DNA from: Thermococcus sp.
GTDB taxonomy: Archaea > Methanobacteriota_B > Thermococci > Thermococcales > Thermococcaceae
Reading direction: 5' to 3'
Assembly: GCA_027023165.1 (NCBI GenBank)
Contig: JALVWX010000084.1
Location: forward strand, 1-7,104
Length of the DNA: 7,104 nucleotides
Positions 1 through 7,104 of this stretch are shown piece after piece. The position numbers were made by a program, and so were the translations under genes. The first letter of the stretch is position 1; each line of letters starts with the position of its first letter. The notes under the pieces were generated by a model that did no database searches, was not told where the DNA came from, and was given only the letters and a program-made list of their open reading frames with translations.

Positions 1-509
1 CCGCGCCTGAAGTGTCCGCTTGGTTTTCCAGTCAAAAGCTCCTCGAACCAAGCCTCGTGCTCTATTTCTTCGTGGAGAATCGCAAGAGCTAAATCGTAAG
101 TTCGAGGGTCTTTTCCGAAGGTATAGGTACATATCTCAGTATAGACTCCCACAGCACAGCGCTCTGCCTGGAGGAGCACCTTCAGAATCTCTTCTACTGT
201 GGGGTTCTCGGGCAAGTAAGCGTCGCTACACCACGCCATTTCTGAAAAATCACGAATGTCCCTAGGAAGCTCTCCTCCGAGTTCATAAATCCTCGGCACA
301 AGGGCCTCAAAATGATTCCTGTCCTCAAGACGCGCATCTTCTACGATTTCCTTTATCGTCTCACCTTCCATGCCAGCGGAATGGTTTCTCAGCAGAGTGT
401 AATAGTAATAGGTTGTGAACTCCGCCGCGGCTGCTTTTAGAAGCATTTCCAGGAGCTTCTCAACGTCTATACCAGCCCTTTCAACAAGTCTTTTGTTGTG
501 TTCAGACAT
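1..509 (-). CDS. dps: Dps-like ferritin (DPSL/thioferritin), 3' end cut by window
   Basis: The visible 169 residues match the archaeal Dps-like class: four-helix-bundle proteins that assemble into hollow cages, oxidise Fe(II) with hydrogen peroxide, store iron and protect DNA. Seen: a ferritin-like helix with Glu30, E62-x3-H66 on the second helix, a Cys118/Cys127 pair flanking helix C, and the ExxH motif E148-H151 on the last helix. The two cysteines near the diiron site are the hallmark of the DPSL subgroup. The ATG at 507-509 is preferred because GGTGA (515-519 on the complement) lies 5 bases upstream. An in-frame ATG at 519-521 would add four residues and could be used if the transcript is leaderless. 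The gene is divergent from a Fur-family repressor with palindromes between them, suggesting iron or peroxide control. About 15-20 C-terminal residues are probably missing off the edge. Confidence 0.93.
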
Positions 510-540
510 GGGTTTCACCATTTAATAGTTGTTAGTTTTA

Positions 541-550
541 GTTAATAAAC
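541..550 (-). promoter_or_regulatory. TATA box of the Dps-like gene
   Basis: Read on the minus strand, GTTTATTAAC preceded by a purine-rich AGAAAA stretch resembles an archaeal BRE-TATA element. Its centre is about 25 bases from position 520-521, so the predicted transcript starts close to the upstream in-frame ATG and leaves only about a dozen bases before the preferred start. Confidence 0.55.
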
Positions 551-551
551 T

Positions 552-583
552 TTTCTATTTAGAAGTTATTTCTATTTAGGAAG
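552..583. promoter_or_regulatory. Putative Fur-family operator pair (two imperfect palindromes)
   Basis: An 11-base sequence, TTTCTATTTAG, occurs at 552-562 and again at 569-579, spaced 17 bases apart. Each copy is the core of an inverted repeat of the form TTCTA-TT-TAGAA; the first copy is perfect in its arms and the second has one inserted G. The pair fills the gap between the TATA box of the Dps-like gene (541-550) and that of the Fur-like gene (586-593), touching the BRE position of both. A dimeric repressor bound here would block both promoters. That the neighbouring Fur-like protein is the binder is inference. Confidence 0.6.
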
Positions 584-585
584 AC

Positions 586-593
586 TTATAAAT
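586..593 (+). promoter_or_regulatory. TATA box of the Fur-like operon; likely leaderless start
   Basis: TTATAAAT is centred 25.5 bases before the ATG at 615, so transcription should begin at or next to the start codon. No Shine-Dalgarno sequence precedes the ATG, which fits a leaderless mRNA. Confidence 0.65.
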
Positions 594-614
594 GGATTTT
601 TTAAAGTTTCATTC

Positions 615-1001
615 ATGTGGAAGGAGAAAGCCATTGAAACTCTACGGAAAAAAGGTTATAAGATAACTCCCCAACGACTTAAACTTCTCCAAATCCTTGA
701 GGAAATTGGAAAAACACACCCCTCCCTTGGAGAGGTTCACGAAAAGCTGAAGAAAGAGTTCCCAACGGTTAGCTTTTCAACCCTATACTCTAACGTTATC
801 ACACTGAAGGAGCTAGGACTAGTGGAGCTTTTCTCCCTTGATGGGGAGACAAGAATAGAAGTGAACACAAGACCTCACATCAACCTCATCTCCGAGGGAG
901 AGATAATGGACCTGAACGACCCCGAGATAATAGAGGCCATACAGCGGAAGACCGGAAAGAGAGTAAGGCTCGTCAACGTGCTCGTTGGTGGGGAACTGTG
1001 A
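615..1001 (+). CDS. Fur-family transcriptional repressor with altered metal site
   Basis: This 128-residue protein has the winged-helix DNA-binding domain of the Fur/PerR family: ITPQRLKLLQILEE at 17-30, HPS at 35-37, and a recognition helix around VSFSTLYSNVITLKELGLVE (52-71). The short C-terminal dimerisation domain keeps the R-x-E of the hinge (80-82) and His88. The usual HxHxxC segment reads RPHINLIS, and the protein has no cysteine at all, so the structural CxxC zinc site is absent and the regulatory metal site is incomplete. It is divergent from a Dps-like ferritin and begins an operon with a molybdopterin protein, so a role in iron, peroxide or redox control is likely (inference). It resembles the PerR-like proteins of Pyrococcus; I do not assign a name. 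Autoregulation through the palindromes at 552-583 is plausible. Confidence 0.88.
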   Translation: MWKEKAIETLRKKGYKITPQRLKLLQILEEIGKTHPSLGEVHEKLKKEFPTVSFSTLYSNVITLKELGLVELFSLDGETRIEVNTRPHINLISEGEIMDLNDPEIIEAIQRKTGKRVRLVNVLVGGEL

Positions 1002-1585
1002 AGGGAAAGCTCATCTTTTCCATTATCTTAATTGCCCTTCTCGCCATTGGCACGTACGGAACCGGTGGTGGAAGCACAGGTAACACAGCGAACCCAACAA
1101 CCGCAAAGAAAACCCCGGACGAGCCGGCCATAGAGATAGCTGGCCTCGTGGAGAGACCATACAACATCACGCTGAACGAGCTTAGGAACATGACTCCAAA
1201 GGTCGTTTACGCCGACCTCTACTGCGTTGATAGCCCTAACCTGCCGCGGAAGAGCGGGAAGTGGGTCGGTGTCCCGCTGAAGACTCTCCTCGAGAGGGCC
1301 GCAATCCGGGAGAACGCGGTAAAGGTGGCCCTCTATGCGAGAGACGGCTACACGACTGACCTGAAGATTGAGGATGTCCTTGCAGATGAGGACATCATAG
1401 TCGCCTACGAGTACAACGGAAATCCGATAAAGCCCCGGCTCGTGGTTCCAGGCAGGTGGGGCTACAAGTGGATAAAGGACATCGTCAAGATTGAGGTAGT
1501 TGATTACAACTTCCTCGGCACATGGGAGAAGGCCGGCTATCCGGACGATGCATATGTTGAAAACGGATCAAAGCCTTGGAGGTGA
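998..1585 (+). CDS. Sulfite-oxidase-type molybdopterin-binding protein, exported
   Basis: The 195-residue product has one oxidoreductase molybdopterin-binding fold (sulfite oxidase / MsrP superfamily, Pfam PF00174). Seen: Cys76 in the YCVDS context, where the family's metal-ligating cysteine sits, followed by WVGVPLKTLLE (89-99), and the C-terminal GRWGYKWIKDIVKIEVVD and GTWEKAGYPDDAY motifs. The metal could be Mo or W, since relatives are tungsten users. The N-terminus is a hydrophobic segment (5-18) followed by a Gly/Thr-rich linker, so the protein is probably anchored or secreted; there is no twin-arginine motif and no lipobox cysteine. The start is a GTG whose last two bases lie in the TGA of the Fur-like gene (4-base overlap), with GGTGGGG at 987-993, indicating translational coupling. 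Substrate unknown; the next gene is a probable membrane partner. Confidence 0.87.
   Translation: MKGKLIFSIILIALLAIGTYGTGGGSTGNTANPTTAKKTPDEPAIEIAGLVERPYNITLNELRNMTPKVVYADLYCVDSPNLPRKSGKWVGVPLKTLLERAAIRENAVKVALYARDGYTTDLKIEDVLADEDIIVAYEYNGNPIKPRLVVPGRWGYKWIKDIVKIEVVDYNFLGTWEKAGYPDDAYVENGSKPWR
1578..1585 (+). promoter_or_regulatory. Strong ribosome binding site that decides a TTG start
   Basis: GGAGGTGA ends inside the stop codon of the molybdopterin gene and lies 4 bases before TTG at 1590. The nearby ATG at 1585 is in another frame and meets TGA after one codon, so this site supports the TTG start of the next gene. Confidence 0.7.
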
Positions 1586-1589
1586 TGGT

Positions 1590-1919
1590 TTGAAGCCCAA
1601 AACCGCCCTCAGAATCGTGGAGTGGACATCAGTGCCGCTTCTGCTCATCACAGGCCTGATGGTCGTAACCGGCTACGCGTCGACCAGTGATGGTGCCTTA
1701 AAGGCCTCTCTCTTCCTCAGCAGGGAAACGGCGGTGGAGATACACACCAGTCCCATTATGAGAACGCTCCTCGGGGTTCTCCTCTTCCTCCACGCCTACG
1801 CCGGGACCGAGCTGATGGCTGCGAGAATTAAGGGAAAGGCCCTGCGAACGGGCCTGGAATACGGGGTTTTGGGCTTTATAATCTACGTTCTCTGGGTCCT
1901 CGTGGCGGGTTCCCTTTAG
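1590..1919 (+). CDS. Small three-helix membrane protein, probable redox partner of the molybdopterin protein
   Basis: Starting at TTG 1590 the product is 109 residues with three hydrophobic segments at about 13-30, 55-73 and 90-107. His52 and His68 bracket the second helix, and Arg8, Arg58 and Arg79 lie near membrane faces. The layout resembles small cytochrome-b-like membrane anchors (MsrQ or DUF4405-like), which pass electrons to or from molybdopterin enzymes of the preceding family. Heme binding is inference: the two histidines are 16 residues apart on one helix, so one subunit could not clamp a single heme with both. The gene begins 4 bases after the upstream stop and ends the operon. A longer reading frame extends upstream over the preceding gene but lacks a ribosome binding site. 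Confidence 0.75.
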   Translation: MKPKTALRIVEWTSVPLLLITGLMVVTGYASTSDGALKASLFLSRETAVEIHTSPIMRTLLGVLLFLHAYAGTELMAARIKGKALRTGLEYGVLGFIIYVLWVLVAGSL

Positions 1920-1922
1920 TTT

Positions 1923-2402
1923 TCAATCCACCTCAAGGCTGAAGTCCTGGTAGTCCATCCAGATGCCTGTCTTCATGATCGCATCGTACTGTGCCCTTAG
2001 GAGTTCGTAGTGCGCTTTTTCAATCCTCGCAAGCTCTTCAAAGAGCCTCCTAACCGAGTCGTGCTCGGCCTCCTTCGCTGCCTTCTCGTAGAATCCCCAC
2101 GTAAGCTTTTCCTGCTCCATACCTATCCTAACTGCATCAACCTCACTGAGGTTTTCCTCGTCCGTCCGAACTATCAGCTTCTCCAGCATCTCCCTGCTCA
2201 CCGCGGGAAGCTCGCACTTCTCAACAACCTCATCCAGGAACTTCTCCTCGAAGAGGTCCCAGTGCTCCGCCTCCTCCTTGGCCAGGAACAGGAACATCTT
2301 CCTTGCCCTCTCATCACGGGCCTTCCTTGCGAGCCTTATGTAGAATTTAAGCTCCGTCTTCTCGACCTCGAGGGCGAGGGCCAGTGCCTCAAGCTCGTTC
2401 AT
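1923..2402 (-). CDS. Rubrerythrin-like diiron protein without rubredoxin domain
   Basis: The product is 159 residues, an all-helical ferritin-like fold. Diiron ligands are recognisable in order: Glu14 or Glu17 on helix 1, E44-x2-H47 (EEAEHW) on helix 2, Glu96 or Glu98 on helix 3 (MEQEKLTWGFYEKA), and E128-x2-H131 (IEKAHY) on helix 4. Classical rubrerythrins carry a C-terminal rubredoxin domain with four cysteines; this one has a single cysteine and stops after the erythrin domain, so an external electron donor would be needed. The family reduces hydrogen peroxide or senses/stores iron in anaerobes. The ATG is supported by GGTGAT at 2406-2411. It converges on the molybdopterin operon with only 3 bases between stops and fits the oxidative-stress theme of the left end. 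Confidence 0.9.
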   Translation of the reverse strand: MNELEALALALEVEKTELKFYIRLARKARDERARKMFLFLAKEEAEHWDLFEEKFLDEVVEKCELPAVSREMLEKLIVRTDEENLSEVDAVRIGMEQEKLTWGFYEKAAKEAEHDSVRRLFEELARIEKAHYELLRAQYDAIMKTGIWMDYQDFSLEVD

Positions 2403-2416
2403 GCCATCACCAAAGG

Positions 2417-2443
2417 ATTATTATGCCACCGGAGGTTATAACC
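2417..2443. promoter_or_regulatory. Divergent promoter of the rubrerythrin and GNAT genes
   Basis: The perfect palindrome GGTTATAACC (2434-2443), preceded on the minus strand by CCCCAAA, gives a minus-strand start near 2413, about 11 bases before the rubrerythrin ATG. On the plus strand ATTATTAT (2417-2424) after AAAGG would start transcription near 2446, just ahead of the GNAT ATG at 2457. The two elements overlap in opposite order, so occupancy by one polymerase would hinder the other. Confidence 0.5.
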
Positions 2444-2456
2444 TTTGGGGAGCGCG

Positions 2457-3005
2457 ATGGACTGTGGAATCGAGAGGGTTGAGCGGCCTATTGAGCTGAA
2501 GGATGAACTTCTGCGGTTCGTCTTCAGCGTTTACAGGGGCACCGAAGGTTCCTACCCGGCCCTTGAATGGGCTGAGCAAAAGCCTTCTCCTGACGATTTT
2601 GAGGGCTTCAGGCGGGTCTACGAGCCGTTCCTTGAGTTCCGCCTCAGAGAGGAGTTTGACGAACTTTACATCCTCAGAGATGGTGGAGAAATCGTGGGGA
2701 CGGTAGCTCTCGTCTACACCTTCGCCGGAAAGGACATCCCATGGGTTCCGGAGGGGATAAGAACCGAGAGGACCTGCCTGATAGAGTTTCTCATGGTCGG
2801 TCCGGAGCACCAGGGGCGGGGCTACGGATCCAAGCTGCTCGATTTTGCCGTGAGGAGATTGAGTGAGCTTGAGAAGGAAGCCTACATCGTGACCTTTCCG
2901 GAGCTTGATGCCTACCGCTACTACCTCCGCAGGGGTTTTGAGGAGGTTGCGCGCTACGGGGAATTCGTCCTCCTCAGGTTTTCCCCAGGCGGTCCCCGAG
3001 TTTGA
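2457..3005 (+). CDS. GNAT-family N-acetyltransferase
   Basis: The 182-residue product has a GNAT acetyl-CoA fold in its second half: beta strand ELYILRDGGEIVGTVALVY (69-87), then IEFLMVGPEHQGRGYG (109-124) with the Q-x-x-G-x-G pyrophosphate loop at 119-124, helix GSKLLDFAVRRL, and a C-terminal YRYYLRRGFEEVARY segment typical of motif B. The acceptor substrate (amino acid, small molecule or protein amino group) cannot be read from the sequence. The ATG at 2457 is chosen over an in-frame TTG at 2445 because GGGGAG at 2447-2452 sits at a usable distance. The last 32 bases overlap the end of a small minus-strand gene. Confidence 0.88.
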   Translation: MDCGIERVERPIELKDELLRFVFSVYRGTEGSYPALEWAEQKPSPDDFEGFRRVYEPFLEFRLREEFDELYILRDGGEIVGTVALVYTFAGKDIPWVPEGIRTERTCLIEFLMVGPEHQGRGYGSKLLDFAVRRLSELEKEAYIVTFPELDAYRYYLRRGFEEVARYGEFVLLRFSPGGPRV

Positions 3006-3147
3006 GGGCGAAGAAGAGGGCTATCATGAAGATGGTGATGTAGTAGCTCCACCTGAATGGGATAAGCCCCATTATCCCGAGGGTATAGACCACTGTGAGG
3101 ACGAGAACAAGCGCGAGCAGGATGCGGTAGAGGCTTTTCTTCTCCAT
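2974..3147 (-). CDS. Small two-helix membrane protein, 57 residues
   Basis: Not assignable to a named family. The frame runs from an ATG at 3145-3147 to a TGA at 2974-2976. Seen: a basic N-terminus (MEKKSLYR), a hydrophobic helix LLALVLVLTVVYTLGIMGLI, a short polar turn PFRWSYY, a second helix ITIFMIALFFALKL, and a charged tail GDRLGKT, i.e. a helical hairpin probably with both ends in the cytoplasm. Support that it is real: GGTGGTGG just before the start, a BRE-TATA element (3179-3192) about 25 bases from the predicted transcript start, and host-like codon use. It lies directly downstream of the double binding lipoprotein on the same strand but has its own promoter. Its final 32 bases are antisense to the GNAT gene. 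Confidence 0.75.
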   Translation of the reverse strand: MEKKSLYRILLALVLVLTVVYTLGIMGLIPFRWSYYITIFMIALFFALKLGDRLGKT

Positions 3148-3178
3148 TCCACCACCGAAGAAAAGGGAAAGGGAGGGC

Positions 3179-3192
3179 TTATAACCTTTGGG
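3179..3192 (-). promoter_or_regulatory. BRE-TATA of the 57-residue membrane protein
   Basis: On the minus strand CCCAAAGGTTATAA is identical over 14 bases to the element upstream of the rubrerythrin gene (2437-2450 region). The TATA centre predicts a start near 3156, giving a leader of about 9 bases that consists almost entirely of the GGTGG binding site. The element lies immediately behind the stop codon of the binding lipoprotein. Confidence 0.6.
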
Positions 3193-5070
3193 TCAGCCCG
3201 TTGAAGAGGTCGCGTTGCAGGCAAGGGGCTGGGCATTGTAGTTGAAGGCCTTCGGGTGGAGCAGCTCTGCAATCTCCTCCAGTCCCAGGACGATCCTCGG
3301 GCCGGGCCTCACGACGAGGTTCTCGTCGCTGAGCATGTAAACGCGGCCGCTCTTGACGGCATCAACGCTTGCGAGTGGTCCCTTGCACAGGTCTTCCGGC
3401 TTCACCCCCGCGTTCGGCGAGATTATGATGACCTCCGGATTCCTCGCGACTATCTGCTCTTCGCTTGCCACGCCCCATCCTTTGACGTCACCGAAGACGT
3501 TTTCACCGCCTGCGAGCCTTATGAGGTCGTTGATGAATGTGCCGTTTCCGGCAGTCCAGTAGCCGTTGTAGTAGCTCAGGATGAAGAAGACCTTTGGCCT
3601 GGGCTTTCCTTGGACGGTCGATTCAACGTAAGCCACTGTGGCCTTCATGTCCGCCACAACCATCAGCGCCCCTTCCTCGCGGTTGGTGACCTTCCCGAGA
3701 AGCTCAACCTGCCTGTAAACCCCGCTGAGGTTCTTTGGTGAGACGATTATCACCGGGGCTATTTCCTCGAGCTTCTTGAGGATGGAGAGCGAGAAGTCGT
3801 CCGCTATTATGAGGTCTGGCTTGAGGGCGGCTATCTTCTCGAGGTTGGCGTACTTACCGTAGCCGCCGACGCGGGTTATGTTCTTCACCGCCGGCGGGAA
3901 GTCCGCGTAGTTCGTAACGCCGACGAGCTTGTCTCCCGCTCCGATGTAGAACAGGGTCTCGGTGATGCTCGGCGCAAGGCTGACTATCCTCTCCGGTTCC
4001 TTCTCAACCGTCACCTTCCGTCCCACGAAGTCGGTGATGGTCATCGGGTACTTGGCCTTGAACGCATCCGGGTGGAGGAGCTTTGCCACTATCTCAAGGC
4101 CGTTCACAACGCGCGGGCTTGGATGGATGAGGTCGCCCTCGTTCTCTATCATGTAAACCCTGCCTTCCTTGGCGGCGGTGGTTCCCGCCAGCGGGCCGCT
4201 GTAGACGTCCTCGACCTTCATGCCGCAGTGCGGGGTCAGAATTATGACCTGCGGATCCCTCTCGAGAACCTGCTCGACGCTGACGCTCGGCCAGCCCTTT
4301 GCGTCGTCGAAGATGTTTTTGCCTCCAGCGAGGTTTATGACGTCGCTGATGAAGGTTCCGCCTCCTGCTGTCATCAGGGGCTTGTTCCAGACGATGTAGA
4401 AGACCTTAACCCGGGGTTCGTTCTTAACGGCCGAGGAGATAGCGGTTATTTTCGCGTTGAACTCGTCGGTTGCCCTCTTGGCGGCATCCTCTGCGTTGAA
4501 GACCTTTCCGAGGAGGTCGAGTGCCCTTGGAATGTCGTTGAGGGAGTGCGGGTCAACGATGAGAACCGGTGCTATCTCCTCGAGCTTGCTGAGAATCGGG
4601 AGGGAGTAGCCGTCCGCTATTATGAGGTCTGGCTTGAGGGCGGCTATCTTCTCGAGGTTGGCGTACTTACCGTAGCCGCCTATCCTGGCAACCTTTGAGA
4701 CCTCCGGTGGAAAGTCGTCGTAGTTCGTGACGCCGACGACCCTGTCGAAGAGTCCGAGGTAGTATAGGTCCTCCGTTATGCTCGGGGCCAGGGTTACAAC
4801 CCTCTTCGGCTCGGCCTTTATCGTCACCGTCCTGTTGGCGAAGTCTTTGACCGTTATCGGGTAGTACAGCTTCTGGCTCTGGATGGAGGTTTGCTGAGCG
4901 GAGGTTGTCTCGGTGGTGCTTGGGGTGCTTGAGGTGCCAGAGGCCTCAAGGGCGGTGCTCTGTGGAGTGGTGGACTTTGTGGAAGTGGTTGTCGTGCTTC
5001 CGCCTATGCACCCCGAGGCAACGACGGCCCCCAAGAATATGAGGATGAGCAAAACCGCCGTCTTCTTCAT
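3193..5070 (-). CDS. Lipoprotein with two tandem BtuF/FepB-type substrate-binding domains
   Basis: The 625-residue product begins with a signal peptide ending in the lipobox VASGC (Cys21), then a Thr/Ser-rich linker (22-67) typical of archaeal surface lipoproteins, then two class III periplasmic-binding domains (PF01497) at about 68-338 and 339-612. These domains bind cobalamin, siderophores, heme or metal complexes for ABC importers. The halves align without gaps at a 271-residue period: YPITVKDF/YPMTITDF, LAPSITE in both, GVTNY, GGYGKYANLEK in both, and HPDAF/HPKAF at the ends. Differences at likely cleft positions (PHCGM versus SPNAG) suggest the two sites may not bind identically. No permease or ATPase is adjacent. 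The ATG at 5068-5070 is chosen because GGTGA lies 5 bases upstream; a GTG at 5077 is the alternative. The ligand is unknown. Confidence 0.9.
   Translation of the reverse strand: MKKTAVLLILIFLGAVVASGCIGGSTTTTSTKSTTPQSTALEASGTSSTPSTTETTSAQQTSIQSQKLYYPITVKDFANRTVTIKAEPKRVVTLAPSITEDLYYLGLFDRVVGVTNYDDFPPEVSKVARIGGYGKYANLEKIAALKPDLIIADGYSLPILSKLEEIAPVLIVDPHSLNDIPRALDLLGKVFNAEDAAKRATDEFNAKITAISSAVKNEPRVKVFYIVWNKPLMTAGGGTFISDVINLAGGKNIFDDAKGWPSVSVEQVLERDPQVIILTPHCGMKVEDVYSGPLAGTTAAKEGRVYMIENEGDLIHPSPRVVNGLEIVAKLLHPDAFKAKYPMTITDFVGRKVTVEKEPERIVSLAPSITETLFYIGAGDKLVGVTNYADFPPAVKNITRVGGYGKYANLEKIAALKPDLIIADDFSLSILKKLEEIAPVIIVSPKNLSGVYRQVELLGKVTNREEGALMVVADMKATVAYVESTVQGKPRPKVFFILSYYNGYWTAGNGTFINDLIRLAGGENVFGDVKGWGVASEEQIVARNPEVIIISPNAGVKPEDLCKGPLASVDAVKSGRVYMLSDENLVVRPGPRIVLGLEEIAELLHPKAFNYNAQPLACNATSSTG
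3798..3867 (-). repeat. 70-bp perfect direct repeat, copy in second binding domain
   Basis: Identical base for base to 4611-4680, offset 813 bases (271 codons, in frame). It encodes residues 402-424 of the double binding protein, beginning GGYGKYANLEK and ending LIIAD. Flanking sequence of the two halves diverges at once. Confidence 0.95.
4611..4680 (-). repeat. 70-bp perfect direct repeat, copy in first binding domain
   Basis: The partner of 3798-3867, encoding residues 131-153 of the same protein. Every third-codon position also matches, unlike in the rest of the two domains. Confidence 0.95.
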
Positions 5071-5115
5071 TTCGCTCACCTTGGATTATTTGTCCATCCA
5101 TGGTCAGAAAAGGGG

Positions 5116-5122
5116 TATATAA
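5116..5122 (-). promoter_or_regulatory. TATA box of the double binding lipoprotein gene
   Basis: TTATATA on the minus strand predicts a start near 5093 and a leader of about 23 bases carrying GGTGA before the ATG. The core TATATA is symmetric, and the plus-strand side has a good BRE-like AAAAGGGG, so some antisense transcription toward the HTH-CBS gene is possible. Confidence 0.55.
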
Positions 5123-5143
5123 GGTTGTTGGATATTTTCTCCG

Positions 5144-5716
5144 TCAGCCCTTCGACTTGGCTATGCGGAAGATGTCCACGCGGGTGATTATTCCCGTTAT
5201 CCTGCCCTCTCTGTCCTGGACGAGAACGGCGGGGTTGTCCTCGAGGAGGTATTTAACGACCTCCAAATCCTCGTCCTCGTTGACTATCGGGAAAGGCTCC
5301 TCCATGACCTCCATGACCTTCCTGCCGTAGATGTCCTCGTACTCAAGACTCTGCCTCACGAGGGTCCTCTCCGTGATGGAGCCGACCACTTTGTTCCCGC
5401 TTATGACGGGTATCTGGGAGATGTTGTGCTCGTTCATGAGCTTGATGACGTTCTCAACCGTTTCGTAGGGCTTGACCGAGAGAACCGGGGAGGACATGAC
5501 GTCCCTGGCGGTCAGCTGGGCACGCTTGCACTCGTGGAGGGCCTGGAGAATGCGGTTGAGGGTGGAGAGGCGAGGATCAACTTTTCCCGTCTCGAGCTTG
5601 GCTATGTAGGCCTGCGTTACCCCCGCCCGTTTGGCAAGCTCCTCCTGGGTTATCCCGAGTTCCTTCCTTATCTTCCTTATCTCCGACGGGTCTATGGGGC
5701 GGGGTATGACCACCAC
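5144..5716 (-). CDS. XRE-type HTH transcription regulator with paired CBS domains
   Basis: About 190 residues. The N-terminal Cro/C1-type helix-turn-helix covers IRKIRKELGITQEELAKR and the recognition part AGVTQAYIAKLETGKVDPR. Two CBS domains follow, the first from LTARDVMSSPVLSV through VVGSITERTLV, the second from VMEVMEEPFPIV through ITGIITRVDIFRI. A CBS pair usually binds an adenine nucleotide or S-adenosylmethionine, so this is likely a repressor tuned by an energy or methyl-donor signal (family knowledge; ligand here unknown). Starts are ambiguous: GTG codons at 5723-5725, 5714-5716 and 5711-5713 are in frame. I take 5716 because GGTGG (5722-5726) is 5 bases upstream, but the TATA spacing would also allow leaderless initiation at 5725. 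Its promoter adjoins the guide-RNA locus. Confidence 0.9.
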   Translation of the reverse strand: MVVIPRPIDPSEIRKIRKELGITQEELAKRAGVTQAYIAKLETGKVDPRLSTLNRILQALHECKRAQLTARDVMSSPVLSVKPYETVENVIKLMNEHNISQIPVISGNKVVGSITERTLVRQSLEYEDIYGRKVMEVMEEPFPIVNEDEDLEVVKYLLEDNPAVLVQDREGRITGIITRVDIFRIAKSKG

Positions 5717-5746
5717 AATAACCACCAGTTATTGGTCACTTCCGGG

Positions 5747-5754
5747 TATTATAA
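5747..5754 (-). promoter_or_regulatory. TATA box of the HTH-CBS gene
   Basis: TTATAATA on the minus strand, preceded by GAAAGC, is centred 25.5 bases from position 5725, the first of three in-frame GTG codons. Confidence 0.6.
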
Positions 5755-5778
5755 GCTTTCCTCAGAAGGGCGTCGAAT

Positions 5779-5836
5779 TGTGGGCCGGGCACAGAGGCCC
5801 GCGGTCATTAATCGCGCGGGTGGATGCTCCCGGCCC
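5779..5836 (-). ncRNA. H/ACA guide RNA hairpin (second, 3' unit)
   Basis: Read on the minus strand: a perfect 8-bp lower stem GGGCCGGG (5836-5829) with CCCGGCCC (5789-5782), immediately followed by ACA (5781-5779). The pocket has guide arms AGCATCCA (5828-5821) and CCTCTGTG (5797-5790). The upper stem CCCGCG (5820-5815) pairs with CGCGGG (5803-5798) and is capped by a kink-loop: GA (5813-5812), four bases, then UGA (5807-5805) able to form tandem sheared G-A pairs that bind L7Ae. The distance from the upper stem to ACA is 16 bases, within the archaeal rule of about 14-16. By the H/ACA pairing rule the target would read CAGAGG-UN-UGGAUGCU, with that U made pseudouridine by Cbf5. I could not place it in rRNA from memory. 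Confidence 0.78.
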
Positions 5837-5906
5837 TGTAGGCTCGGCGTGAGCACGCTCCGCTCATCGAACCCGACTACCTCGCGGAGGCGGTAAACCG
5901 AGCCTA
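5837..5906 (-). ncRNA. H/ACA guide RNA hairpin (first, 5' unit)
   Basis: On the minus strand the lower stem AGGCTCGG (5905-5898) pairs perfectly with CCGAGCCT (5847-5840), followed directly by ACA (5839-5837), which abuts the next hairpin. The upper stem CTCCGC (5889-5884) pairs with GCGGAG (5863-5858). Above it GA (5883-5882) faces UGA (5866-5864), the kink-turn signature, with a larger 15-base apical part. Guide arms are TTTACCGC (5897-5890) and CGTGCTCACG (5857-5848). The distance to ACA is 18 bases, slightly long, so this unit is less certain than the next one. The predicted target core is GAGCACG-UN-GCGGUAAA. Confidence 0.62.
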
Positions 5907-5907
5907 T

Positions 5908-5927
5908 GAGGAGACGATTGTCCCCTC
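5908..5927 (-). other. Short hairpin at the 5' end of the H/ACA transcript
   Basis: On the minus strand GAGGGGAC (5927-5920) pairs with GTCTCCTC (5915-5908) with one G-U pair and a four-base loop. It lies between the predicted promoter and the first H/ACA unit. It has no pocket or ACA, so it is not a third guide; it may cap or stabilise the precursor. Confidence 0.4.
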
Positions 5928-5957
5928 ACTGTCGGCGTTTTATTCTAAGCCCAACGA

Positions 5958-5965
5958 CTTAAAAA
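5958..5965 (-). promoter_or_regulatory. Candidate TATA box of the H/ACA RNA (or T-run terminator of the transporter)
   Basis: TTTTTAAG on the minus strand is the same element, within GTTTTTAAGT or close to it, as the one upstream of the EamA gene at 6859-6866. It predicts a start near 5935 and an RNA of about 155-160 bases. Because it follows the EamA stop codon by only 5 bases and contains five T residues, it may also end transcription of that gene. Confidence 0.45.
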
Positions 5966-5970
5966 CCTGC

Positions 5971-6837
5971 TCATGCCGAGATGAGGATTACTCCAGAGAC
6001 CGCTAAGAGGAGGCCGGCCAATATTCTCCCATTGGGCGGCTCTTTTAGCAGGAGTATGGCCATGGCCGAGGCCATTATCGGGTTTATCGCAGATACTGGA
6101 GCCGCTATCTGCGAACCCACCTTCCCAACGGCGTAGACGAAGAGATACTGCCCAATAAGGAGGCCGCTGAGCGCGACACCGGTTAGAACTGCTATCTCCC
6201 TCGCACTCAGCCCTCTAAGCTCATCTATGTACCTCGGCAGGACGAGTGAGATGCCCAGGGCCGCGGACATCATCCTCAGACCGGCGAGCGGGAGAACCGG
6301 CATCCGCGACGTGAGCCAGTCCATCAGGAGTATCGCGAGGCTCCACGAAATCGGAGCCAGAACCGCGAAGAGGAAGCCCCTTCTGCTTGAGTGCTCGCTC
6401 TCCTCGGCCTTCTTTACGATCACCACCGAGGCAACGACCAGCACCGCCCCGATAAGCATCCTGAGGGTTATGTGTCTCCCAAGGAAGAGGGAGGCCCACA
6501 GCATAACCCAGAGGGGATAGGTCGAGGTCACAGGAACGGTTCTCGAAACTCCCATATCGTTGAGGGCGTGGAAGTAGAAGTAGTCTCCTACGACAAAGCC
6601 GAGGATGCCGGAGAGAAAAGCCACCCCCAGGAGTTCCGGCTTGAGGCTCACTATTTCGCCGAATGTGCCGGTGAGGGCAAAGATAACCGCGAACATGGCC
6701 GAGACTATGTATAGCCTGACGATGTTAACCGCGACGGGGCTTTTGTTCCTCATGCCCACTTTAACGAGTATCGTTGAGACCGCCCATGAGAATGCAGATG
6801 TGAGCGCCGCCAAAACCCCGAGGATGAAGCCGTTCAT
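5971..6837 (-). CDS. EamA-type drug/metabolite transporter (DMT superfamily)
   Basis: The 288-residue product has ten hydrophobic segments in two five-helix EamA repeats (PF00892), about 5-141 and 153-287. Typical features are ALTSAFSWAVSTILVK in helix 1, GFVVGDYFYFHALNDMGVSRTVPVTSTYPLW near the end of the first repeat, and the parallel GQYLFVYAVGKVGSQIAAPVSAINPIMASAMAILLLKE in the second. Such inner-membrane carriers exchange or export amino acids, nucleotides or other metabolites; the substrate is not readable here. The ATG at 6835-6837 has no ribosome binding site, but a TATA box is centred 25.5 bases upstream, so a leaderless mRNA is likely. The stop is followed by a T5 run and the guide-RNA locus. 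Confidence 0.92.
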   Translation of the reverse strand: MNGFILGVLAALTSAFSWAVSTILVKVGMRNKSPVAVNIVRLYIVSAMFAVIFALTGTFGEIVSLKPELLGVAFLSGILGFVVGDYFYFHALNDMGVSRTVPVTSTYPLWVMLWASLFLGRHITLRMLIGAVLVVASVVIVKKAEESEHSSRRGFLFAVLAPISWSLAILLMDWLTSRMPVLPLAGLRMMSAALGISLVLPRYIDELRGLSAREIAVLTGVALSGLLIGQYLFVYAVGKVGSQIAAPVSAINPIMASAMAILLLKEPPNGRILAGLLLAVSGVILISA

Positions 6838-6858
6838 GGTGGTGGAGAGGTCGGTTAA

Positions 6859-6866
6859 CTTAAAAA
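6859..6866 (-). promoter_or_regulatory. TATA box of the EamA gene; leaderless start
   Basis: TTTTTAAG on the minus strand is centred 25.5 bases before the A of the ATG at 6837. No GGTG or GGAGG sequence exists between them on the coding strand. Confidence 0.6.
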
Positions 6867-6897
6867 CTTAACGTTCAGATTTACGGCGAAATGTAGC

Positions 6898-6904
6898 TTA
6901 TTAA
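6898..6904 (+). promoter_or_regulatory. TATA box of the C/D box RNA
   Basis: TTATTAA is centred at 6901, predicting a start at about 6926-6927, one or two bases before box C. This matches the compact, promoter-driven layout of many archaeal C/D RNA genes. Confidence 0.55.
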
Positions 6905-6926
6905 CCCCCACCACCAAGGAGGGGGC

Positions 6927-6980
6927 GATGATGACCTCGGCAGAGCTGACGCAAGGATGATGACGATCTTGAGTGCTGAA
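6927..6980 (+). ncRNA. C/D box guide RNA (2'-O-methylation guide)
   Basis: All four boxes are perfect and correctly ordered: box C ATGATGA (6928-6934), D' CTGA (6946-6949), C' ATGATGA (6957-6963), D CTGA (6976-6979). The D' guide is CCTCGGCAGAG (6935-6945, 11 bases) and the D guide CGATCTTGAGTG (6964-6975, 12 bases); the D'-C' spacer is 7 bases. These lengths are standard for archaea, where L7Ae, Nop5 and fibrillarin assemble on the RNA. By the fifth-base rule the D guide would methylate the C in CACU-C-AAGAUCG and the D' guide the G in CUCU-G-CCGAGG. Targets (rRNA or tRNA) could not be confirmed from memory. Confidence 0.9.
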
Positions 6981-6986
6981 CTCGAG

Positions 6987-7002
6987 AAAAGCCGAAAGAA
7001 AG
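6987..7002 (-). terminator. Possible pyrimidine-rich terminator of the partial minus-strand gene
   Basis: Downstream of the stop codon the minus strand reads TTTCTTTCGGCTTTT, a T-rich tract of the kind that ends archaeal transcripts. It would stop transcription before it runs antisense through the C/D RNA gene. Confidence 0.3.
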
Positions 7003-7005
7003 GGA

Positions 7006-7104
7006 TCAGCGGAGGATTATGTTGAGCTTCCTGAGGGTTATCCCCACGCTGTACTCCCTCGAGACATCGCGGATGACGCGCTTTATGGTCTCGGCTATGT
7101 CCCG
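7006..7104 (-). CDS. C-terminal 32 residues of an unrecognised protein
   Basis: Only the end of the gene is in the window; the 5' part lies off the right edge. The tail reads RDIAETIKRVIRD then VSREYSVGITLRKLNIILR and stops at TGA 7006-7008. It is charged and amphipathic, with typical thermococcal codon choice (ATA, AGG, CTC, GAG). No family can be named from this fragment. The opposite strand is also open here and even has GGAGG before an ATG at 7020, but its product is rich in Ser, Met and Thr as antisense shadows usually are. Confidence 0.6.
   Translation of the reverse strand, partial: RDIAETIKRVIRDVSREYSVGITLRKLNIILR

Follow-up and report, generated by a model that had tools for sequence, protein, structure and literature searches.

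An H/ACA hairpin with a kink-loop on a Thermococcus contig is very probably the third hairpin of an HgcF (Pab35) guide RNA

The window analysed here is a stretch of 7,104 nucleotides from Thermococcus sp. (contig JALVWX010000084.1, positions 1 to 7,104). On its minus strand, a 628-aa ORF (3193-5079) appears, by eye, to encode one lipoprotein in which two periplasmic binding domains, of the type found in iron/cobalamin uptake, stand in tandem, and it contains the repeated stretch GGYGKYANLEKIAALKPDLIIAD. The same strand carries the feature under study, 58 bases at 5836-5779, which a sequence-only reading of the window had proposed to be an unannotated H/ACA guide RNA with a kink-loop. All the elements claimed for it are present: in minus-strand order it reads GGGCCGGG AGCAUCCA CCCGCG C GA UUAA UGA C CGCGGG CCUCUGUG CCCGGCCC ACA, a canonical archaeal H/ACA hairpin with a pocket between its two stems, a kink-loop of GA/UGA type and an ACA box (Table 1). 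The proposed spacing of 16 bases to the ACA is likewise right, counted from the strict upper stem; if the A-C mismatch beneath the upper stem is taken as a layer of the GA stem, which is our own reading, it becomes 15. Passages of PMC4652768 give this spacing as 14-16 in the folds studied and 14-15 in productive folds. The hairpin combines what is expected of archaeal H/ACA sRNAs, namely a lower stem, a pocket, an upper stem with a kink-loop and an ACA at 14-16 nt.

Table 1. Coordinates of the HgcF RNA, its hairpins and the elements of the third hairpin in the window.
Feature	Position	Strand	Evidence
HgcF (Pab35) H/ACA sRNA gene	5768..5936	-	RF00058 match; RNA spans about 5936 to a point shortly beyond the ACA at 5779
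TATA-like box TTTTTAAG, lying 22-29 nt before the RNA's first base	5958..5965	-	column conservation in copies
5' hairpin, without a pocket and without an ACA box after it	5906..5929	-	fold; conserved in most aligned copies
Middle H/ACA hairpin, probably Pa35.1; ACA at 5839-5837, 3' guide GUGCUCAC	5837..5905	-	alignment, guide conservation
Third H/ACA hairpin, probably Pa35.2	5779..5836	-	Rfam match, folding, covariation, descriptor scan
Lower stem, 8 bp, GGGCCGGG/CCCGGCCC	5836-5829 with 5789-5782	-	sequence
5' guide strand of pocket, AGCAUCCA	5828-5821	-	GCAUCC kept in 89/92 copies including the window
Upper stem, 6 bp, CCCGCG/CGCGGG	5820-5815 with 5803-5798	-	sequence
Kink-loop C-GA-UUAA-UGA-C, putative L7Ae site	5814-5804	-	sequence; no change in GA or UGA across 65 aligned sequences
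3' guide strand of pocket, CCUCUGUG	5797-5790	-	CUCUGU kept in 90/92 copies including the window
ACA box	5781-5779	-	invariant in 65 aligned sequences

A covariance search, which had been suggested as a check, was positive: the minus-strand RNA at 5936-5768 matched Rfam RF00058, HgcF (Pab35), over model positions 1-168 with 144.2 bits (E 3.2e-34; gathering threshold, 70 bits). This match supports the interpretation as a minus-strand H/ACA guide with a kink-loop, and it names the family that the sequence-only reading had allowed might be known. Rfam match, fold and alignment agree on an RNA of three hairpins, the third being the 58-base feature. The hairpin first proposed is complete as a hairpin, but the RNA continues upstream to about 5936 with two more, and two of the three are H/ACA units in the window. 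The 5' hairpin carries a GCCGACAG leader. We put at about 97% the probability that these 58 bases belong, as third hairpin, to an orthologue of HgcF (Pab35), the Thermococcales RNA of three hairpins that has a promoter-like box of its own and a pocket that would pair with 23S rRNA for Cbf5. The HgcF family is already known, and the hairpin is part of a catalogued guide RNA rather than a discovery.

The hairpin is complete by itself and would fold alone, as a free-standing, unannotated H/ACA gene outside the known families, with a target of its own, would have to do. Such a gene is highly unlikely given that a single unbroken Rfam match covers 5936 to 5768 and that the same hairpins precede the third in the copies uncut by a contig end, with the exception of L099, in which the 5' part differs.

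The HgcF reading is also borne out by its distribution. A whole-genome search with RF00058 across the order's 94 genomes gave matches in 91, above the cut-off in 90; G022, G075 and G092 gave no HgcF match in this search. Among genomes reached via the neighbouring regulator gene, 24 of 25 matched RF00058. A paralogue, suspected from weak second HgcF matches in seven genomes, was discarded when Rfam assigned those loci to HgcE. HgcF occurs as one copy per genome in a related context, which is the pattern of an orthologue. We located 91 copies among 92 loci, the miss (L101) being an HgcE locus, and aligned them together with the window (92 rows, 89 distinct).

One match, at C1:318231-318398 of genome G028, sits at the published P. 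abyssi Pab35 coordinates, and G028 was therefore taken for P. abyssi. A section of PMC4652768 on Pab35 reports this orthologue as transcribed (318,227-410), and the RNA is divided there into motifs Pab35.1 to.3. Judging from targets and pocket sizes, the middle hairpin in the window would correspond to Pa35.1 and the third to Pa35.2. Compared with P. abyssi HgcF/Pab35 (RF00058), the window shows a full-length match with the same hairpin order, kink-loop, ACA boxes and guide strands. Set against the P. abyssi copy (L106), its third hairpin has a lower stem that differs by one pair and a 5' side longer by one base, which is also the case in many copies from other genomes. For the homologue of Pa35.2 in T. 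kodakarensis, PMC4652768 describes a change of subfamily, from 56 to 66. HgcE/Pab105 (RF00060) and HgcG/Pab40 (RF00064) are multi-hairpin H/ACA sRNAs like HgcF, and neither was among the window's Rfam matches up to E 10. A match to snoR9/Pab21 (RF00065) that overlaps the third hairpin is below threshold (19.5 bits versus a gathering score of 90). By eye, the alignment shows a middle hairpin without its apical arm in L093, L094, L097, L098, L204 and L206, where the kink-turn-like top has become kink-loop-like.

Upstream of the RNA, column conservation in the TATA-like box is nearly complete, with T at -27 in 98% and A at -24 in 99% of the 90 copies that have 45 upstream bases, the window included. 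In the window, TTTTTAAG comes directly after the stop of an EamA-type ORF, and an EamA match lies upstream in 69 of 88 evaluable copies (either strand, flank of ~1.5 kb). Downstream, on the same strand, a match to an XRE-CBS protein starts 26-90 bases past the copy end in 66 of 90 evaluable copies, close enough for the structure to be a transcription terminator or a 5' leader of that regulator gene. However, XRE-CBS was not found within ~1.5 kb downstream in the other 24 of the 90, and the HgcF RNA is still present in them; moreover, the guide strands are among its most conserved parts, which a terminator does not need. A terminator or leader is thus very improbable as the identity of the hairpin. 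Co-transcription of HgcF with the XRE-CBS gene is possible, and the HgcF RNA is retained where the neighbour genes differ.

Compensatory changes in homologues, the second check suggested, were found in both stems, as expected of an archaeal H/ACA sRNA. The third-hairpin alignment comprised 65 sequences (64 distinct), that is, each distinct module of the 91 copies plus the window, and stem pairs were counted from the outside inwards with a script, since one group of copies is displaced by a column in the MAFFT alignment. Standard pairs filled 516 of the 520 cells of the lower stem, the best of 2000 re-dealings reaching 493. The upper stem was counted in 53 sequences, leaving out one that could not be parsed and 11 that carry an additional base; its pairs 2-7 were standard in 317 of 318 cells, and positions 1 and 8 were mostly unpaired (standard in 8/53 and 17/53). 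Both-sided changes occurred in lower pairs 5, 6 and 8 and in upper pairs 5, 6 and 7. Most of these were limited to between one and three sequences, whereas lower pair 8 changed in many. Since the re-dealing shuffle ignores relatedness, more weight is due to the both-sided changes. The guide strands, by comparison, hardly vary (CUCUGU and GCAUCC, counts in Table 1), and the GUGCUCAC of the middle hairpin is kept in 92 of 92 rows. In L118 (G032, module 1599-1656), CUCUGU is kept and the 5' guide is replaced, and both 23S sites of that genome, U2549 and U2697, considered below, are unaltered. A guide-target co-change suspected in G079, from an absent site string and an altered 5' guide, was rejected, the rRNA difference lying outside the paired part.

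The 58-mer folds with an energy of -34.5 kcal/mol (z = -4.3), and 0 of 200 shuffles were as good. A descriptor modelled on the third hairpin (an 8-pair and a 6-pair stem, pockets 5-9 long, GA...UGA and a stem-adjoining ACA) had a single match in the window, the third hairpin itself. The region is GC-rich (0.66 over the HgcF match), which favours chance foldbacks, but the motif appeared in 0 of 150 dinucleotide shuffles and shows compensatory changes and conservation across the order, so that the odds of a chance foldback are negligible.

In archaeal H/ACA RNPs, the kink-loop binds L7Ae, the lower stem and the ACA are held by Cbf5 and Nop10, and the target uridine is offered to Cbf5 in the pocket. 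As the third hairpin of HgcF, the feature would recruit L7Ae through its kink-loop and dock on Cbf5 through its ACA and lower stem. The pocket would then pair with 23S rRNA, and Cbf5, together with Nop10 and Gar1, would convert the unpaired uridine into pseudouridine; in another register, the same pocket may also guide U2697. Protein binding and pseudouridylation are expected at the window's locus by analogy with other guides, for which parts of PMC6138745 describe both the binding of L7Ae, Cbf5, Nop10 and Gar1 and pseudouridylation activity. The same source reports that, in T. kodakarensis, a guided 23S pseudouridine is absent from strains without cbf5, nop10 or gar1.

Candidate targets were read in the rRNA of relatives rather than of the window's own genome, with 23S taken from 14 genomes of the order (15 full-length copies) and from five further records. 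Positions follow P. abyssi 23S numbering by a single offset of 26 set on U2549, with which a uridine also stands at each of the seven other P. abyssi positions that PMC4652768 supplied. The sequence-only reading had placed the target in an 8+8 pocket, with the string CAGAGG-UN-UGGAUGCU. In that register, only imperfect rRNA sites were found, and shifts by one or two bases led to the U2549 and U2697 sites. Complementary uridines do exist in the 23S of relatives, but in registers 1 and 2 bases off the string, whose half GGAUGCU nonetheless sits in the second site (U2697).

ACAGAG-U, the exact complement of CUCUGU followed by the uridine, is found a single time within the 23S match of each of the 15 copies, at P. 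abyssi U2549. In the rRNA of relatives, this register gives six contiguous pairs on the 5' side of the target and one pair on the other side. The single pair is as printed for Pa35.2-L2549 in the relevant portion of PMC4652768, where a single pair in the 3' duplex, with the 5' duplex under the energy cut-off, is treated as productive. The second site, GACAGG-UC-GGAUGCU at P. abyssi U2697, forms five pairs with the 3' strand and seven with the 5' strand, in a register one base further from the upper stem, and it is present in the same 15 copies. In G096-G098, which lie outside the set of 94 genomes of the order, ACUGAG stands at the U2549 position and the U2697 site also differs. Neither site was located in the 23S records of G099 and G075.

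By pairing score alone, the U2549 and U2697 sites are weak evidence. The U2697 site scored 29 with the window's pocket, a value that 7 of 300 shuffled guides reached, and a 16S site (1374, in G037) scored 27; U2549, with a crude score of 18, ranked only seventh in the 23S list. Given the shuffled guides, the 16S site and the rank of U2549, the target assignments rest on the literature and on conservation more than on scores. tRNA targets were rejected, the best score among the 44 tRNAs of G037 (both strands) being 23, below that of U2697 and above that of U2549. We take pseudouridines 2457, 2580 and 2605 of E. coli, which lie around the peptidyl-transferase centre, as the counterparts of the U2549, U2672 and U2697 sites.

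The middle hairpin forms seven contiguous pairs at U2672, on the 5' side of the target, in the rRNA of relatives. Of 200 shuffled guides, 158 reach as good a score, and with the P. abyssi strands another 23S site outranks U2672. Pa35.1 is paired with U2672 of P. abyssi 23S in the pertinent passage of PMC4652768, which adds that two guides could target this position. The guides of the HgcF RNA are thus complementary to the printed U2549 and U2672 sites, U2672 not being special by score. Another idea concerned an orphan pseudouridine of P. abyssi 23S, position 2585 (position 2589 in T. kodakarensis, as given in a portion of PMC6138745), to which the apical loop GCGAGGUAG-UCGGG of the middle hairpin is complementary by eye. 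It was abandoned: the loop is missing in several genomes, a 9-base RNA match to 3 kb of rRNA is expected by chance (our own arithmetic), and none of six P. abyssi H/ACA sRNPs makes this pseudouridine in vitro according to that portion of PMC6138745.

The two 23S sites of the third hairpin raise the possibility that one pocket guides two uridines of the peptidyl centre in registers one base apart, U2549 (6+1, 3' strand) and U2697 (5+7, leaning on the 5' strand). We consider this plausible, if somewhat short of even odds. It amounts to a small testable prediction, one guide for two sites in the ribosome's catalytic centre; if it holds, G032 (L118), with its replaced 5' guide, is predicted to lose one modification only. 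A term look-up in PMC4652768, PMC6138745, PMC3726423 and PMC7991803, as far as their main texts were covered and with the primary Pab35 paper outside the scope, did not show U2697 as a site. No novelty is claimed for it, and Muller et al. 2008 may well list it.

Family, extent and likely targets of the HgcF RNA can thus be worked out from sequence. Of practical value are the annotation of HgcF at 5936-5768 on the minus strand, which ORF-based annotation would miss, and the alignment of 92 copies (89 distinct) with clear compensatory changes in the third hairpin.

A second small RNA is apparent in the window. By sequence, a box C/D sRNA lies on the plus strand at 6928-6979, divergent from the EamA-type ORF, with the layout RTGATGA-guide-CTGA-spacer-RTGATGA-guide-CTGA. 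Its Rfam matches were only below thresholds. It is found in 53 of the 91 one-per-genome loci around HgcF, with the D-guide core GATCTTGAGT in 53 of 53 and the D'-guide core CTCGGCA in 49 of 53, and one copy is at G028:C1:258105. Among the 44 tRNAs of one relative, the D' guide pairs over 8 bases with the D-arm of tRNA-Leu(CAA), one other tRNA scoring higher, and the best pairing of the D guide, over 10 bases, is with the anticodon loop of tRNA-Leu(CAA). The methylation spot of a C/D guide follows a fifth-base rule, which would place C34 of tRNA-Leu(CAA) at the predicted methylation spot of the D guide.
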